Below, piece by piece: positions 17,952 to 40,598 of a stretch of 64,000 nt of DNA. Under the pieces are notes generated by a model. It had not been told where the DNA came from. It was given only the letters and a program-made list of their open reading frames with translations, and searched no databases. The position numbers and the translations under genes are program-made. The stretch lies in NCBI GenBank assembly GCA_017409265.1, contig JAFQSY010000049.1:62001-126000 (forward strand), written 5' to 3'. Source of the stretch: Clostridia bacterium (GTDB lineage Bacteria > Bacillota > Clostridia > Oscillospirales > Acutalibacteraceae). The first letter of the stretch is position 1, and every line of letters begins with the position of its first letter.

Positions 17952-18036
17952 TGGTGCCGATGGTGGGACTCGAACCCACACGGGTATTCCCAAAGCATTT
18001 TGAGTGCTTCACGTCTGCCAATTCCATCACATCGGC
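17952..18036 (-). tRNA. tRNA-Leu, anticodon CAA
   Basis: 85 nt including an encoded CCA. Acceptor arm GCCGATG / CATCGGC, D-arm region with GGAATTGGCAGAC, anticodon stem AAGCA/TGCTT around loop CTCAAAA (anticodon CAA, reads UUG), a long variable arm as in class II tRNAs, and GGGTTCGAGTCCC as T arm. Discriminator base A, as needed for leucyl-tRNA synthetase. Confidence 0.93.
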
Positions 18037-30697: not shown

Positions 30698-30721
30698 ACT
30701 AAACGATATTTAAATGCATTG

Positions 30722-30946
30722 ACAAGAAAAAGTAAGCATTAATGATTTTTCAGAGAAAGAGCGGCAGGTGAAAGCTCTTATTCCTTATTGCTGAACCCAT
30801 CTTTGAGCAGCATGCCGAAACAAAGTAAGCATCGCCGGATTTCCGCCGTTACCGGATTATGAGAGCAGATTATTAATCTGAACTCGGGTGGTACCGCAGA
30901 CTATTATTGTTTGTCCCGAGCCTTTGGGCTTCGGGACATTTTTTAT
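30722..30946 (+). ncRNA. T-box riboswitch controlling proS (tRNA-Pro sensing)
   Basis: Leader that reads tRNA charging. Visible elements: Stem I start CAGAGAAAGAG with GGTGAAAGCTCTT; the specifier segment TGAACCCATCTTTGAG, where CCC at 30796-30798 follows GAA and encodes proline; the T-box GGGTGGTACCGC (30886-30897), whose TGGT pairs with uncharged tRNA acceptor ends; and a terminator hairpin TGTCCCGA / TCGGGACA (30912-30919 with 30931-30938) followed by T6. Uncharged tRNA-Pro would favour the antiterminator and switch on proS. Specifier assignment is by pattern, not by folding. Confidence 0.9.
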
Positions 30947-30961
30947 TGGAGGTAAAAATTA

Positions 30962-32677
30962 ATGAAAATCGACAAACTTGCAGGCGAACGTTTTAAAGAA
31001 AAGCCTTCTGATTGCGTCATTGACAGCCATGCACTTATGCTCAGAGGCGGCTACATGAAAGGCGTTGCAAACGGAATTTATTCATCCTTCATGCCGTTGA
31101 GAAGAATCACACGAAAAATTGAAAACATCATCCGAGAAGAAATGGACGCCATTGACGGTCAGGAAGTACAGTTTCCCGTTGTTATGCCTGCATCTCTCTG
31201 GGCAGAATCAGGCAGATACGAAAGCATCGGAAGCGAGCTTATGCGTTTCAAGGACAGAAACGACGCTCCCATGGTTCTTGGTATGACTCATGAAGAAGCT
31301 GCTGTTCAGCTTGTCAGAGAATATGCCAATAGTTATACAAAATATCCCTTCATGATTTATCAAGTACAAACCAAGTTCCGTGATGAAGCACGTCCCAGAG
31401 GCGGTCTTATCAGAGTCCGTGAATTTACTATGAAAGATGCATATTCTTTCCATACCTCGCAGGAGGATCTTGAAAGATATTACGACATCTGCTACAAGGC
31501 ATATGAGCGCATTTTTGCAAGAGCAGGCATTCCCGAGGTTATCACCGTTGCATCGGATTCGGGCATGATGGGTGGCAGTATTTCCCATGAATATATGCTT
31601 CTTTCTCCCATCGGCGAAGATTCAATCGCAGTTTGCTCAGAATGCGATTACAGAGCTAACATGGAAGCTGCTGAAAGCATAATTGAAAACAAAATTGAAG
31701 GTGAATCAAACGAACTTGAGCTTGTTTACACACCGGATATCCATACAATTGACGACATTTGCAACTTCCTTAAAACTCCTCTTGAGGAATCCTGTAAAGC
31801 TGTTGTATACCAAAAGAACATGACCGACGAATATGTTGTTATTTTCGTCAGAGGAGACCTTGATATAAACGAAACAAAACTTACAAACTATCTTGGTGAA
31901 GCTGTTCATCCCGCTGTAATCACAGATGAATGCGGACTTTTCGCAGGTTTCATCGGTCCTTACAAACTTGATAACGAAAAGTTTACTGTCCTTTATGATA
32001 AGTCACTCGAAAACACACACAATCTTTCATGCGGAGCAAACCAGCTTGACCACCACTACAAAGGTCTTAAAATCAGCAGAGATATCGGCGAAGTTGAATA
32101 CATCGACCTTGCAAAAATCAAGGAAGGCGGCATCTGCCCCAAGTGCGGCAAGCCTGCAATCAGTATCTCAAGAGGTATCGAAGTCGGCAATATCTTCCAG
32201 CTTGGCACAAAATACACAAAATCAATGGGCATGCAATATCTTGACAGTGAAGGCAACCTTCAGTATCCCATCATGGGCTGCTACGGCATCGGTGTCGGCA
32301 GACTTGCTGCATCGGTTTGTGAAGCACATCATGACGAATACGGTCCGATTTGGCCCATGTCAATCGCACCCTGGCATGTTCAGATTTGCTGCTTAAGAGC
32401 AGATGATGATGAATGCAGAGGCGTTTCGGATAACCTTTATCAGAAGATGCTCGACAACAGAATGGAAGTTATTTATGACGACAGAAACATCAGACCCGGC
32501 GCAATGTTCTCCGATGCTGACCTTCTCGGTGTTCCCGTCAGAGTTATCGTAAGCCCCAGAAATCTTAAAGACGGTGTTTGCGAAATTGTTACAAGAGATA
32601 AAGAAATAAGCCTTAAGGTTGAGCTTGATAAGGTTCTCGAAACCGTTAAGGGCATAATTGCAGACAGACTTAAATAA
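30962..32677 (+). CDS. proS: Prolyl-tRNA synthetase
   Basis: Charges tRNA-Pro with proline in the cytoplasm. Class II aminoacyl-tRNA synthetase of the bacterial type, 571 residues, with an editing (YbaK-like) domain inserted in the middle (about 225-385, with CGANQLDHHYKG near its end). Class II motif 2 lies in FRDEARPRGGLIRVREFTMKDAY, split here as FRDEARPRGG then RVREFTMKDAYSFH, and motif 3 in CYGIGVGRL. The C-terminal anticodon-binding domain begins near 470. GGAGG lies 9 nt before the ATG. Expression is set by the T-box just upstream, and a terminator follows. Confidence 0.96.
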   Translation: MKIDKLAGERFKEKPSDCVIDSHALMLRGGYMKGVANGIYSSFMPLRRITRKIENIIREEMDAIDGQEVQFPVVMPASLWAESGRYESIGSELMRFKDRNDAPMVLGMTHEEAAVQLVREYANSYTKYPFMIYQVQTKFRDEARPRGGLIRVREFTMKDAYSFHTSQEDLERYYDICYKAYERIFARAGIPEVITVASDSGMMGGSISHEYMLLSPIGEDSIAVCSECDYRANMEAAESIIENKIEGESNELELVYTPDIHTIDDICNFLKTPLEESCKAVVYQKNMTDEYVVIFVRGDLDINETKLTNYLGEAVHPAVITDECGLFAGFIGPYKLDNEKFTVLYDKSLENTHNLSCGANQLDHHYKGLKISRDIGEVEYIDLAKIKEGGICPKCGKPAISISRGIEVGNIFQLGTKYTKSMGMQYLDSEGNLQYPIMGCYGIGVGRLAASVCEAHHDEYGPIWPMSIAPWHVQICCLRADDDECRGVSDNLYQKMLDNRMEVIYDDRNIRPGAMFSDADLLGVPVRVIVSPRNLKDGVCEIVTRDKEISLKVELDKVLETVKGIIADRLK

Positions 32678-35515: not shown

Positions 35516-35544
35516 TTTAAAAATATAAATTTATATGTTATAAT
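35516..35544 (+). promoter_or_regulatory. Promoter of argF-carB-dapF
   Basis: TTTAAA (35516-35521), 17 bp, TATAAT (35539-35544). A second TATAAT at 35553-35558 could act as an alternative -10. I see no clear ARG-box. Confidence 0.55.
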
Positions 35545-35592
35545 TTATTGAATATAATCTGATTTAGTTAATAATTGTTTTTGGAGGCATAT

Positions 35593-36498
35593 ATGAAGCA
35601 TTTACTCAAGCTTATGGATTTGAGCACCAATGAAATCAACGAGATTCTTAATCTTGCCGATCAGCTCAAATACGAAAAGAAAAACGGAATTGAACACCAC
35701 CATCTTAAAGGCAAAACCCTCGGTATGATTTTTGCAAAATCATCCACCAGAACAAGAGTTTCTTTTGAGGTTGGCATGTATGACCTCGGCGGTATGGCTC
35801 TTTTCCTCAGCTCACATGATATTCAGCTTGGCAGAGGAGAGCCTGTAAATGATACAGCACGAGTTCTGTCGGGTTATCTCGACGGAATCATGATAAGAAC
35901 CTTTGACCAGAGTGACGTTGAAACTCTTGCCGAGTACGGTTCAATCCCCATCATCAACGGTCTTACCGATTACTGTCATCCGTGCCAAGTGCTTGCAGAC
36001 CTCATGACAATCCGTGAGTTCAAGGGCGGTATCAAAGGCAACAAGCTTTGCTATATCGGCGACGGAAATAACATGGCAAACTCTCTCATCGTCGGCGGTA
36101 TCAAAATGGGAATGTCAGTCAGCATTGCATGCCCCGAAAACTATAAGCCTGACGCTGAAATTATGAAGTGGGCTGCTGAAAACGGCGATTTCACATGCAC
36201 ACCTGATATCCTTGAAGCTGCCAAAGGTGCAGATGTTCTTTACACCGATGTCTGGGCATCAATGGGACAGGAAAGTGAAGCCGAAGAAAGAAAGAAGATT
36301 TTCGAAGGCTATCAGATAAATGACAGCGTTATGGCTGTTGCAAATCCCGATGCAATGGTTCTTCACTGTCTCCCCGCTCACCGTGAAGAGGAAATCACCA
36401 ATAAGGTGTTTGAAGAACATGCAAAGGAAATTTTCGAAGAAGCAGAAAACAGACTTCACGCTCAGAAAGCAGTTCTCGTTAAGCTTCTCAAGGATTAA
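35593..36498 (+). CDS. argF: Ornithine carbamoyltransferase
   Basis: Transfers the carbamoyl group from carbamoyl phosphate to ornithine, making citrulline for arginine synthesis. 301 residues with the carbamoyl-phosphate site KSSTRTRVSFE (about 48-58), HPCQ (about 129), the ornithine-binding DVWASMGQE (about 222) and HCLPAHR (about 259-265); the last two tell it from aspartate carbamoyltransferase. ATG 35593 follows GGAGG with 6 bp spacing. It is 21 nt upstream of the carB-dapF fusion, whose product supplies its substrate. It could run backwards for citrulline use, but no arcC is next to it. Confidence 0.93.
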   Translation: MKHLLKLMDLSTNEINEILNLADQLKYEKKNGIEHHHLKGKTLGMIFAKSSTRTRVSFEVGMYDLGGMALFLSSHDIQLGRGEPVNDTARVLSGYLDGIMIRTFDQSDVETLAEYGSIPIINGLTDYCHPCQVLADLMTIREFKGGIKGNKLCYIGDGNNMANSLIVGGIKMGMSVSIACPENYKPDAEIMKWAAENGDFTCTPDILEAAKGADVLYTDVWASMGQESEAEERKKIFEGYQINDSVMAVANPDAMVLHCLPAHREEEITNKVFEEHAKEIFEEAENRLHAQKAVLVKLLKD

Positions 36499-36519: not shown

Positions 36520-39500
36520 ATGCCAATCAATAAAGATATTAAAAAAGTCATGGTTATCGGTTCCGGTCCCATCGTTATCGGACAGGCTGCCGAATTTGAC
36601 TATGCGGGAACCCAGGCATGTCGAGTTCTCAAAGATGCCGGTCTTGACGTTGTTCTTGTAAACTCAAACCCGGCAACAATCATGACCGATAAAGCTCTTG
36701 CGGATGAGATTTATCTTGAGCCGCTTACTGCTGAAACAGTTAAGAGAATCATTGAAAAAGAAAAGCCCGACAGCCTTCTTGCTGGTCTCGGCGGTCAGAC
36801 AGGTCTGACAATCGCTATGCAGCTGAGCAAAGACGGCTATCTTGACAGAATGGGTGTTAAGCTTCTCGGAACAAATGCCGAAGCCATTGATAAGGCAGAA
36901 GACAGAAAAATGTTCAGAGATACCATGGAATCAATAAATCAGCCTGTTATTCCCTCTGAAATTGCAAACGATGTTGATACTGCTCTTGAAATTGCAGAAA
37001 AAATCGGATATCCTATCATCATCCGCCCTGCATTCACCCTCGGCGGTGGCGGCGGTGGCGTTGCAAACAACGCAGAAGAGCTTGCAGTCATTGCCAAAAC
37101 AGGTCTTGACCTTTCCCCAATCACCCAGGTACTTGTTGAAAAATACATCTTTGGCTGGAAGGAAATTGAGTTTGAGACCATGCGTGACAGTGCAGGCAAC
37201 TGCATCGCAGTCTGCAGCATGGAAAACTTTGACCCCGTAGGCATTCATACAGGCGACAGTATTGTTGCCGCTCCCGCTCTTTCACTTACAGACGAAGAAT
37301 TCCAGATGCTCCGTAAAGCATCTCTTGATATTGTTGATGCACTCGGCATCATCGGCGGCTGTAACTGTCAGTTCGCTCTCGATCCCAACAGCATGGACTA
37401 CGCTGTTATCGAAGTTAATCCCAGAGTTTCACGTTCATCTGCTCTTGCAAGTAAAGCAACAGGCTACCCCATTGCAAAGGTAACTGCAATGCTTGCTCTC
37501 GGCATTACTCTTGATGAAATCAAGAACGAAGAAACAGGTCTTAACTGCGAAAAGTTTGAACCCGATGTTAAATACATCGTTGTTAAGCTTCCCAAGTGGC
37601 CTTTCGACAAATTCGTTAATGCAAGCCGTCAGCTCGGTACTCAGATGAAAGCAACCGGCGAGGTTATGTCCATCGGTCCTACATTTGAAAATGCAATCAT
37701 GAAGGCTGTAAGAGGCGCTGAAATTTCACTCGATACTCTCAACTCCGCTCCCAAAACAAAAGCTCCCCTTATAGACAGACTTAAAAACACTGATGACATG
37801 CGTCTCTTCTCTGTTTTTGAAGCAATCAAGAGCGGTATGTCAATTGAAGAAATTCACGATATTACAAAGATTACCGAATGGTTCCTTCTTAAGCTCAAGA
37901 ATCTTGCCGATTACGAAAAGGCAATTGAAAATGGCAACATGACCGTTGAGCTTTATAATCAGGGTAAACTTTACGGCTATACAGATGCTGCTCTTAAGCG
38001 TCTTTCGGGCGTCAGCGAACTGCCTGCACACAAGGAAGCATCATATAAGATTGTTGACACTTGCTCATCTAATTTCCCTGTCGCCGCTCCGTATTTCTAC
38101 TCTGTGTATGACGAGGAATGCGAAGCACGTCCCTTCCTTGAAAAAAGCGATAAGGAAAGAATCATCGTTCTCGGTTCGGGTCCCATCAGAATCGGTCAAG
38201 GTATTGAATTTGACTATTCATCGGTTCACTGTGTATGGACACTTAAAGAACTCGGCTATGAGGTTGCTATTATCAACAACAACCCAGAAACCGTTTCAAC
38301 AGACTATGACACTGCAGACAGACTCTATTTCGAGCCTCTTACTCCTGAAGATGTTATGAACATCATCAAGGTTGAGAAGCCCATTGGCGTTGTTGTTGCA
38401 TTCGGCGGTCAGACAGCTATCAAACTTACAAAGTTCCTTGACGAAAACGGAATTACAATCCTCGGCACCTCGGCTGATGGTATTGATACAGCAGAAGACA
38501 GAGAACGCTTTGATGCACTGCTTGAAAAGTTTGCAATCCGCAGACCCAAGGGCATGGGTGTTATGACAAAGCAGGAGGCTCTCAATGCTGCAAACACTCT
38601 CGGATATCCCGTTCTTCTCCGTCCCTCATATGTTATCGGCGGTCAAAATATGACAATTGCCCATGAGGATGCAGATGTTGAACGTTACATGGACATCATC
38701 CTTTCAGGCGAAATTGAAAACCCCGTTCTTGTTGATAAATACATGATGGGTACTGAACTTGAGGTTGACGTTATCTCTGATGGCAAGGATGTTCTTATCC
38801 CCGGTATTATGGAACACGTTGAGCGTGCAGGTGTTCACAGCGGCGACTCCATCGCTGTTTATCCGCCCTATAATCTCAACGATAAAATGCGCGAGAATAT
38901 TTGTGATGTTTCCGAAAAACTTGCTCTTTCTCTCGGCACAAAGGGTCTTGTTAACATTCAGTATCTGATTTATCACAACCAGCTTTATGTTATTGAAGTT
39001 AACCCCAGAGCATCAAGAACTATTCCCTATATCAGCAAGGTTACGGGTGTTCCGATGGTTGACATTGCTTCAAAGGTTATGGTTGGTCAGTCACTCAAAG
39101 ATCTCGGCTACGGTACAGGTCTTTATAAGACTCCCCCCTATTATACAGTTAAGGTTCCCGTATTCTCATTTGAAAAGCTTTCGGATGTTAACTCAATCCT
39201 CGGTCCTGAAATGAAGTCAACAGGTGAAGTTCTCGGTATCGGTAAAACTACTGCAGAGGCTCTTTATAAAGGTCTTACATCAGCAGGCTTCAAAATTCAG
39301 CTTCCCACAGCAGAAAAGAACATCGGCATTCTTTTGAGTGTTGACAGTCATGATATGCTTGACGCCGTTTCGCTTGCAAAGAAGCTTGATGACCTCAAGA
39401 TTAATATTTATGCAACAAAAGAAACAGCTGATGCTATTTCACAGCTTGGCATTGATGTTGAATATGTTAACAGCAGATATGATGATAACTCTGAAATCTA

Positions 39501-40560
39501 CAAGCTTCTTGAAAGCGGCAAGATAGACTATGTCGTTTATACGGGCGCTCTTCAGGATTCAACAATGGGCGATTACATTGCTCTTCACAGACGTGCAATC
39601 CAGCTTTCAATTGCCTGCATCACTTCTCTTGATACTGCAAACGCACTTGCGGACATCATTGCAAGCCGCTTTAATCAGCAGAATACAGAGCTTGTTGACA
39701 TCAACAATATGCGCTCCGAAAGACAGACTCTTAACTTTGTTAAGATGGATGCATCAGGCAATGACCACATTGTTATAGAAAACTTTGACAATTCAATCAC
39801 CTGCCCTGAAAGCCTCTGCGTAAGCCTTTGCGATAGAAATCACGGAGTCGGCAGCGATGGCGTTGTTCTTGTTGAAAAGTCAGATGTTGCACAGGTTAAG
39901 ATGAGAGTATTCAATCTTGACGGCAGCGAAGGCAGAATGGGCGGAAACGCAATGCGTTCGGTTGCAAAGTACGTTTATGACAAAGGCTATGTCGATACCG
40001 AAACAGTAACCATCGAAACAGCAAGCGGCGTTAAGAGCGTTGAGCTTTACACAATGAACGGCAAGGTAAGCTCTGTCTGTGCTAACATGGGCAAGGCAGA
40101 CCTTGAAAATGCCGTTACCAGCACTATCGACACAAACAAATTCATTGATTACCCTGTATCCATCAACGGTGAAGAACAGAGAATAACCTGCGTTTCAATG
40201 GGCAACCCCCACTGTGTAATCTTTGTTCCCAGAGTTGACACAATCGAGATTGAGAAGGTCGGCCCTAAGTTTGAAAAGGCTGATATTTTCGCTCACAGAG
40301 TAAACACCGAATTTGTAAGAGTTGTTAATGAAACCACACTCAAAATGAGAGTCTGGGAACGCGGCAACGGTGAAACTCTTGCCTGCGGCACAGGTGCATG
40401 CGCAGCAGTTGTTGCAGCAGTTGAAAACGGTTTCTGCAAGAAGAATACCGATATCACCGTTAAGGTACGCGGCGGTGACCTCATTGTTAATTATAGTGAT
40501 GAAGGAGTTTACCTCACAGGCTCAACTAAGCTTGTTTTTGAAGGCTCACTTGAATATTAA
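36520..40560 (+). CDS. carB: Fusion of carbamoyl-phosphate synthase large subunit with a DapF-like domain
   Basis: A single frame of 1346 residues. Residues 1-1060 are a full CarB: two ATP-grasp halves (starting VMVIGSGPIVIGQAAEFDYA and IIVLGSGPIRIGQGIEFDYS), and the C-terminal allosteric MGS-like domain (about 935-1060). After a short linker, residues 1071-1346 are a full diaminopimelate epimerase (LNFVKMDASGNDHIV, then ETLACGTGACAAVVAA near 1285-1300). No stop, frameshift or ribosome site lies at the join; ATG 39709 inside it lacks a Shine-Dalgarno. The epimerase's second catalytic Cys is present (about C1289), but the first is Gly (G1141, in EGRMGGNAMRSV). CarA is not adjacent. Strongly likely to make carbamoyl phosphate; epimerase activity is doubtful. 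Confidence 0.9.
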   Translation: MPINKDIKKVMVIGSGPIVIGQAAEFDYAGTQACRVLKDAGLDVVLVNSNPATIMTDKALADEIYLEPLTAETVKRIIEKEKPDSLLAGLGGQTGLTIAMQLSKDGYLDRMGVKLLGTNAEAIDKAEDRKMFRDTMESINQPVIPSEIANDVDTALEIAEKIGYPIIIRPAFTLGGGGGGVANNAEELAVIAKTGLDLSPITQVLVEKYIFGWKEIEFETMRDSAGNCIAVCSMENFDPVGIHTGDSIVAAPALSLTDEEFQMLRKASLDIVDALGIIGGCNCQFALDPNSMDYAVIEVNPRVSRSSALASKATGYPIAKVTAMLALGITLDEIKNEETGLNCEKFEPDVKYIVVKLPKWPFDKFVNASRQLGTQMKATGEVMSIGPTFENAIMKAVRGAEISLDTLNSAPKTKAPLIDRLKNTDDMRLFSVFEAIKSGMSIEEIHDITKITEWFLLKLKNLADYEKAIENGNMTVELYNQGKLYGYTDAALKRLSGVSELPAHKEASYKIVDTCSSNFPVAAPYFYSVYDEECEARPFLEKSDKERIIVLGSGPIRIGQGIEFDYSSVHCVWTLKELGYEVAIINNNPETVSTDYDTADRLYFEPLTPEDVMNIIKVEKPIGVVVAFGGQTAIKLTKFLDENGITILGTSADGIDTAEDRERFDALLEKFAIRRPKGMGVMTKQEALNAANTLGYPVLLRPSYVIGGQNMTIAHEDADVERYMDIILSGEIENPVLVDKYMMGTELEVDVISDGKDVLIPGIMEHVERAGVHSGDSIAVYPPYNLNDKMRENICDVSEKLALSLGTKGLVNIQYLIYHNQLYVIEVNPRASRTIPYISKVTGVPMVDIASKVMVGQSLKDLGYGTGLYKTPPYYTVKVPVFSFEKLSDVNSILGPEMKSTGEVLGIGKTTAEALYKGLTSAGFKIQLPTAEKNIGILLSVDSHDMLDAVSLAKKLDDLKINIYATKETADAISQLGIDVEYVNSRYDDNSEIYKLLESGKIDYVVYTGALQDSTMGDYIALHRRAIQLSIACITSLDTANALADIIASRFNQQNTELVDINNMRSERQTLNFVKMDASGNDHIVIENFDNSITCPESLCVSLCDRNHGVGSDGVVLVEKSDVAQVKMRVFNLDGSEGRMGGNAMRSVAKYVYDKGYVDTETVTIETASGVKSVELYTMNGKVSSVCANMGKADLENAVTSTIDTNKFIDYPVSINGEEQRITCVSMGNPHCVIFVPRVDTIEIEKVGPKFEKADIFAHRVNTEFVRVVNETTLKMRVWERGNGETLACGTGACAAVVAAVENGFCKKNTDITVKVRGGDLIVNYSDEGVYLTGSTKLVFEGSLEY

Positions 40561-40566
40561 AAAATT

Positions 40567-40598
40567 ATCGGCAGTTCAAATGAACTGCCGATTTTTTA
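40567..40598. terminator. Terminator after carB-dapF overlapping the end of the ECF gene
   Basis: Perfect 12-bp stem ATCGGCAGTTCA (40567-40578) / TGAACTGCCGAT (40581-40592), 2-nt spacer, then T-run. The opposite-strand ECF stop codon (40576-40578) and its last codons lie within the hairpin. Confidence 0.88.

Follow-up and report, generated by a model that had tools for sequence, protein, structure and literature searches.

The window (i.e. the whole 64,000-nucleotide stretch that was analysed, from contig JAFQSY010000049.1 of the Clostridia bacterium assembly GCA_017409265.1) carries a fused gene, carB::dapF, on its forward strand (36520..40560, +). A single open frame of 1346 amino acids, identified by reading of the frame and by Pfam and NCBIfam, runs without a stop through CarB, the large subunit of carbamoyl-phosphate synthase (CPS), and continues in frame through the fold of the diaminopimelate (DAP) epimerase DapF. 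It begins 21 nt after argF, encoding ornithine carbamoyltransferase (35575..36498, +; 307 amino acids as listed from TTG; TIGR00658 426.3 bits, cut-off 280.85). The epimerase half has lost one of its two catalytic cysteines while its substrate-binding residues are retained, and on balance it has probably become a regulatory domain of the synthase.

The CarB part (residues 1-1050; 36520..39669, +) matches NF003671 over residues 1-1050 (1405.9 bits) and TIGR01369 over residues 4-1045 (1364.9 bits, cut-off 1027). It is colinear over its full length with the E. coli enzyme (1bxr, 995 bits), and scores 772.6 bits to CPS I (5dot). The DapF fold (residues 1072-1346; 39733..40557, +) matches TIGR00652 over residues 1072-1345 (262.9 bits, cut-off 114.65, model positions 2-269 of 270), and aligns over its length with the solved DapF structures, best with 2otn (E 4.8e-63). 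The Pfam order is two CPSase_L_D1 and two CPSase_L_D2 stretches, the oligomerisation domain, the MGS-like allosteric domain of CarB (residues 949-1035; 39364..39624, +; PF02142 43.3 bits) and two DAP_epimerase stretches. The junction (39670..39732, +) contains no in-frame stop. The preliminary description of this DNA, made from the letters alone, had proposed the fusion with these boundaries, and it is borne out both by the profiles and by recurrence of the fusion in relatives.

That recurrence also bears on the quality of the junction. A fusion with a similar junction is found in many genomes, among relatives and across the class, so that a sequencing indel, a hidden frameshift or a local assembly joint is excluded. 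Internal initiation at the ATG at 39709, giving two proteins, had been raised as a further possibility. A motif scan found no Shine-Dalgarno match before it, although this is a weak negative, since the scan missed even the start of carB::dapF itself, where AAGGGGG is visible by eye. Internal initiation may occur there, and is so far without support.

The fusion is common in the order and not isolated. A search of 99 related genomes with the CarB tail plus DapF as query gave matches from which we counted 48 genomes with one open frame through both parts, five of them (G002, G008, G013, G036 and G087) having the fusion cut by contig ends. These come from 14 of 26 family codes, and 23 of the 48 belong to the genus of the window (45 genomes). 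G031 has a broken copy in addition to the intact one. In a sample taken across the class 31 of 196 genomes carry the fusion, G000 and G078 being in both samples; here G109 (match 1-318) was counted as a fusion, and G121 (match 1-141 in a frame of 1145 amino acids) was not. G287, a class genome in one contig, has the fusion plus a separate DapF. Among the 80 best-matching named loci (the best 80 of 574 confirmed stretches) 47 are fusions, which is not a frequency because the loci were selected for likeness to the fusion. Within these 80 the fused loci are mostly from Clostridia, Oscillospiraceae and Ruminococcus metagenome-assembled genomes (MAGs), including Ruminococcus sp. FC2018 (L114); two are labelled Gracilibacteraceae (L142 and L154) and four Treponema or Spirochaetaceae (L133, L136, L137 and L158).

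The preliminary description had called the second half a complete diaminopimelate epimerase. The fold is indeed complete, but the position of the first catalytic cysteine is occupied by glycine. The window protein reads MGGNAMRS where MCGNGIRC is usual; in DapF alignments Gly1141 (39940..39942, +) replaces Cys73 of E. coli DapF, and the second catalytic cysteine, Cys217, is retained as Cys1289 (40384..40386, +). The two catalytic cysteines of Anabaena DapF are reported as Cys75 and Cys224 (PMC12039745), and E. coli DapF with C73 and C217 both converted to alanine is reported to have no epimerase activity (PMC4227774). From the loss of Cys73 epimerase activity is therefore predicted to be absent, since the two-cysteine mechanism should no longer be available to the window domain. 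An ordinary bifunctional enzyme was our first hypothesis for the window lineage, and was dropped after the cysteines had been tabulated.

We call a fused DapF live if it has both cysteines, and dead if it does not have both. In 141 DapF rows all 47 standalone proteins keep both cysteines, and the 94 fused rows divide into 23 live and 71 dead. Position 73 is thus cysteine in 47/47 standalone and 23/23 live fused domains; in the dead fusions it is Ala (39), Gly (24), Ser (4), Phe (2), Thr (1) or Cys (1), the last being without Cys217. In a tree of the 139 distinct rows a single branch separates standalone from fused domains (Shimodaira-Hasegawa-like approximate likelihood ratio test, SH-aLRT, 81). 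The live or dead state has changed at least six times, two of these changes being forced by well-supported branches, and 51 dead rows including the window form one clade (support 97). The four fusions labelled Treponema or Spirochaetaceae are all dead, and transfer and mis-binning are indistinguishable for them; L133 clusters on the tree with the live fusion of G085. G040 has two different fused genes, L078 (G040:C122) and L036 (G040:C31), both dead, possibly because the bin mixes two strains.

In some live lineages internal starts may be of importance. A Shine-Dalgarno-like match precedes an internal ATG at the DapF start in 5/23 live fusions (L040, L043, L044, L131 and L135) vs 1/71 dead ones, as scored in a fixed stretch of 40 residues that misses the junction in a few rows such as L136, L142, L154 and L158. 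Free DapF would also be possible in these five.

Organisms with a dead fusion have in most cases another route to meso-DAP. Standalone DapF was sought with a profile in the genus of the window and with a single protein query in the other relatives. Of 42 dead-fusion genomes among the 99, 21 carry a two-cysteine standalone DapF and a further 17 carry Ddh (the match in G088 being weak, 70 bits), i.e. 38/42 in total. As to the separate dapF that the preliminary description suggested looking for, one is present on C39 of the window's own assembly, a contig that may be foreign or acquired by transfer, and Ddh is on C17. No standalone DapF was found by these searches in any of the six live-fusion genomes. 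Ddh is present in three of them (G067, G081 and G091), and was not found in G055 (79% complete), G061 (99%) or G085 (97%).

These data allow us to consider whether the window protein might be an ordinary bifunctional fusion that still makes meso-DAP despite the glycine. Live fusions do exist, and in G061 and G085 they are the only route to meso-DAP that was found; moreover no alternative route was detected in four dead-fusion genomes (G026, G032, G065 and G087). Against this, the residue replaced in the window is cysteine in every standalone DapF, and an alternative exists in most dead-fusion genomes and in the window's assembly. A bifunctional fusion of the live kind would be expected to have both cysteines in a genome without a second DapF; the window protein has lost the first cysteine, and its assembly carries another dapF. 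A bifunctional window protein is thus highly improbable.

The substrate pocket has been retained. Because loci L097-L176 were retrieved by the patterns GNPH[CA]V[VI]F and ACGTGACA, their Asn157/His159 and Cys217-Thr219 are biased; the percentages given here are therefore restricted to 41 dead rows found without peptide patterns (L036-L081 and the window). In these rows Asn64, Gly218 and Thr219 are conserved at 100%, Asn157, Asn190, Glu208 and Arg209 at 97.6%, Asn11 at 95% and Cys217 at 93% (38/41), where the mean over all columns is 70%. Asn64, Asn157, Asn190, Glu208 and Arg209 correspond to Asn66, Asn164, Asn197, Glu215 and Arg216 of Anabaena DapF, which are reported to hold the distal amino-acid end of the ligand (PMC12039745). 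The window protein has all five.

The dead domain is under strong purifying selection. For 45 pairs from 10 genomes of the window clade the median ratio of nonsynonymous to synonymous rates (dN/dS) is 0.067 for the dead DapF part, 0.053 for CarB and 0.094 for the MGS part; these values, from our own Nei-Gojobori script, are rough because synonymous distances are near 1. It might be supposed that a domain that has lost its catalytic cysteine, in genomes where meso-DAP is mostly supplied elsewhere, is carried along as a harmless relic. However, its selective constraint is close to that of CarB and its pocket residues are conserved, so a neutral relic is hardly credible. A fold and pocket held by selection after loss of a catalytic residue are what would be expected of a pseudoenzyme, and by its sequence the window domain appears to be one.

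Another possibility is that the dead domain remains an enzyme that works with one cysteine and catalyses a one-base reaction (proton exchange, elimination or isomerisation) with DAP or some other amino acid as substrate. PhzF and the proline-racemase-like dehydratases, which have related folds, do one-base chemistry, and Cys217 is kept in 38 of the 41 rows together with most of the pocket. On the other hand residue 73 varies by lineage between Ala, Gly, Ser, Phe and Thr, and is therefore unlike one new catalytic residue. In addition, change of either cysteine in the DapF-like racemase PddB is reported to nearly abolish activity (PMC8225329). We regard a one-cysteine enzyme as improbable.

The main rival of a ligand sensor is a scaffold, in which the dead DapF would act by protein contacts, either in dimerisation of the CPS or in docking of ArgF or some other partner. 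DapF is reported to regulate RppH by contact in a manner that does not need catalysis (PMC4227774); ArgF, a user of carbamoyl phosphate, is encoded next door, and the domain is under purifying selection. Yet a scaffold does not need the pocket, and the five distal residues are conserved at 98-100% against the 70% column mean. We therefore consider the scaffold unlikely, if still the strongest competitor of the ligand-binding domain that we prefer.

The neighbourhood of the genes suggests how the fusion arose. Names for argF, carA, carB and dapF have profile support; purF, pyrG, nadE, dapL and lysA were named by reading of the sequence and BLAST between loci. Where carB and dapF are unfused they are found in the arrangements carA-carB-dapF-dapL-nadE-lysA (L035), carA-carB-dapF-dapL (L084 and L193) and carA-carB-nadE-dapF-dapL (L169). 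At L151 (4859-6828) carA is followed directly by dapF, pyrG, nadE and dapL, carB being absent from between. The live fusions of the 99 relatives follow carA, in 4/6 cases purF-carA, and three have dapL downstream. It is therefore likely that the fusion originated when carB and dapF were neighbours and the stop separating them was lost. On the tree the fused domains do not have the unfused dapF of G000:C39 as their sister, so that this locus exhibits the arrangement and not the ancestor.

Dead and live fusions have different neighbours. Leaving out rows near a contig end (13 dead and 6 live for argF; 12 dead and 2 live for dapL), argF is upstream of 38/58 dead vs 0/17 live fusions, and dapL is downstream of 0/59 dead vs 12/21 live fusions. 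In the window the transcription unit would most simply be argF-carB::dapF. A terminator-like hairpin of 11 pairs followed by a T run (40567..40592, +) stands at its end, the region having 11 such sites vs 5.7 in shuffles, and a promoter-like site precedes argF at 35516-35544, such sites being no commoner in the region than in shuffles.

The CarB half has also changed at a regulatory position. Lys993 is reported to be needed for binding of uridine monophosphate (UMP) by E. coli CPS (PMC6245113), and in the window it is replaced by Ser985 (39472..39474, +) by alignment. In a table lacking three dead rows and one live row that were too short, Lys993 is present in 22/22 live fusions, 6/6 unfused CarBs (three of which are near-identical), 26/68 dead fusions (four gaps among the 42 losses being counted as lost) and 0/12 of the window clade, where six have Ser and six Gly. 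By contrast Thr1042 is retained in all 96 rows and Thr977 in 95. The loss of Lys993 fits a CarB that would be freed from pyrimidine feedback. The window CarB keeps Thr977 and Thr1042, and also Glu783, His788 and Asp791. With Glu892 these last three are the ornithine ligands of CarB. Loss of the ornithine site was considered and rejected, since position 892 is uninformative: CarBs have Val or Ala there whether they are fused or not.

No carA lies between argF and carB::dapF in the window or in 10 related loci, where argF directly precedes the fusion. In the window's own assembly carA was found only on C39. The carA profile gave nothing above cut-off in 11 genomes of the window clade (G005, G013, G019, G021, G027, G031, G033, G036, G039, G041 and G044), three of which are 93-97% complete, nor in G008, which lies outside the clade. 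In the eight of these that have a complete fused gene, it is the only CarB found. For pyrB 10 of the 11, and for argG nine, exceed the cut-off, the rest showing fragments; none has a match to pyrG of L035. This is either a real nucleotide auxotrophy or a shared cluster that has been systematically lost from bins. Note that a cluster read as (guaA)-pyrG-purF-carA-carB-dapF-dapL-nadE-lysA, in L035 (G000:C39:1-12721), L082 (G010:C8) and L083 (G007:C1), shows 98.5-99.2% identity across 11 kb between three species, whereas the window locus is only 83-85% identical to the loci of G010 and G007. By our own reading integrase-like open frames lie past its end. It is either a recent transfer (an island) or cross-contamination between MAGs, and since binning may drop a near-identical cluster of this kind, carA is not proven to be absent. 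A search for signs that the CarA interface has decayed in the carA-less clade gave nothing clear: at 181 sites, i.e. those in the first 408 residues otherwise conserved at 95% or more, there are three clade-specific changes, with one in the carA-bearing sister G032 and none in the control clade. The E. coli large subunit is reported, in the title of Rubino 1987, to make carbamoyl phosphate from NH3 in vivo. Use of ammonia by the window CPS is a possibility suggested by the missing carA.

Taking these data together, we take the gene to be a real and old carB-dapF fusion, and think it somewhat probable that its epimerase half is now a pseudoenzyme serving as a ligand-binding regulatory domain on an argF-linked CPS. 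The carB and dapF genes would have been neighbours in clusters such as carA-carB-dapF-dapL, and would have become one bifunctional gene once the stop between them was lost; in some lineages the fusion is still the sole DapF found. In the window lineage the fusion stands beside argF, and loss of Cys73 would have ended two-base epimerisation. The retained pocket would take an amino acid, in the simplest case DAP or something closely similar to it, and binding would be relayed through the adjoining allosteric domain to adjust the synthesis of carbamoyl phosphate. The CarB so controlled no longer has the lysine on which UMP binding depends. Three options had been offered in the preliminary description. 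The one best supported for this lineage is that the DapF fold has been reused as an accessory or sensor domain; channelling or a second catalysis is disfavoured by the glycine at position 73 and the other routes to meso-DAP.

Several observations weigh against this interpretation. Support for the fused group is modest at SH-aLRT 81, and well-supported branches force only two changes between live and dead. The Lys993 character has changed about four times on the tree, and since most independent pairings of live and dead fusions do not differ there, its loss marks the argF-linked clade and not the dead state as such. In 20/58 dead fusions there is no argF within 3.5 kb upstream. The links of the dead state to argF, dapL and Lys993 rest on one to four well-supported independent pairs, and a test for their correlated change on the tree was without power, the events being few. 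Neither another DapF nor Ddh was found in the dead-fusion genomes G026 (84% complete), G032 (75%), G065 (90%) and G087 (97%). The dead set is also relaxed at 12 positions other than 73 that live and standalone DapFs conserve, including 1078, 1083 and 1085 near the N-terminal Asn11 motif on the proximal side; this side may therefore have been altered, and DAP may not be the ligand. Pure binding does not need Cys217, which is nevertheless mostly retained. Lastly, G095 has lost most of the pocket, and G065 and G088 have lost Cys217 and Asn75.

A more specific version can be proposed in which the enzyme is a DAP-gated CPS without a glutaminase. The pseudo-epimerase would replace nucleotide feedback, so that carbamoyl phosphate for arginine would be set by DAP and free ammonia. 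This is speculative and we consider it rather doubtful. If true, the supply of pyrimidines would be set in the same way wherever the fusion is the only CarB.

Elsewhere in the window there is a T-box leader (30710-30921, +; 128.4 bits) just upstream of an open frame of 571 amino acids at 30962, and a tRNA gene (17955-18036, -; Rfam, 51.8 bits).

The fusions place on one tree a natural series from neighbouring genes through a bifunctional fusion to a pseudoenzyme with a conserved pocket, and this would therefore be a direct test bed for the origin of regulatory domains from enzymes. If the ligand is DAP, cell-wall and lysine metabolism would be linked to the supply of arginine and pyrimidines. 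There is a practical consequence too. Profile annotation names these proteins diaminopimelate epimerases, TIGR00652 being above its cut-off here, so that in metabolic models of gut Clostridia a dead domain may be credited with the synthesis of meso-DAP.

A literature search covering titles and the beginnings of abstracts, with few subscription papers, found neither a CarB-DapF fusion nor an inactive DapF domain. We regard this as a new domain architecture of known families, with a pseudoenzyme transition, and not as a new kind of system. The full-length colinearity of the window protein with CarB (TIGR01369; E. coli 1bxr), together with the residues Glu783, His788, Asp791, Thr977 and Thr1042, places its first half in that family, from which it differs in the C-terminal DapF fold, the loss of Lys993 in its clade and the lack of an adjoining carA. 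With DapF (TIGR00652; PDB 2otn, 9mro and 1bwz) it shares by alignment the whole fold and the substrate-binding residues; it differs in the glycine at the first catalytic cysteine and in being fused to CarB, and dapL is not downstream in any of the 59 dead fusions where this could be checked. Mitochondrial CPS I (PDB 5dot) is reported to be switched by N-acetylglutamate at its C-terminal allosteric domain and to run on ammonia (PMC6022934), but has no DapF domain, and the use of ammonia by the window enzyme is only suggested by the missing carA. Fusions of lysine-pathway enzymes are known in oomycetes, where in the account available from PMC2705460 the CPS stands by itself, the lysine fusion joins a reductase to an aminotransferase, and no DAP epimerase was found. 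There is a functional likeness with E. coli DapF acting on RppH, since DapF without its catalytic cysteines still regulates another enzyme: the protein with C73 and C217 changed to alanine is reported to bind and stimulate RppH (PMC4227774). That is a laboratory mutant, a separate protein acting by contact, whereas the window protein lost its cysteine naturally and would act on a target to which it is attached.

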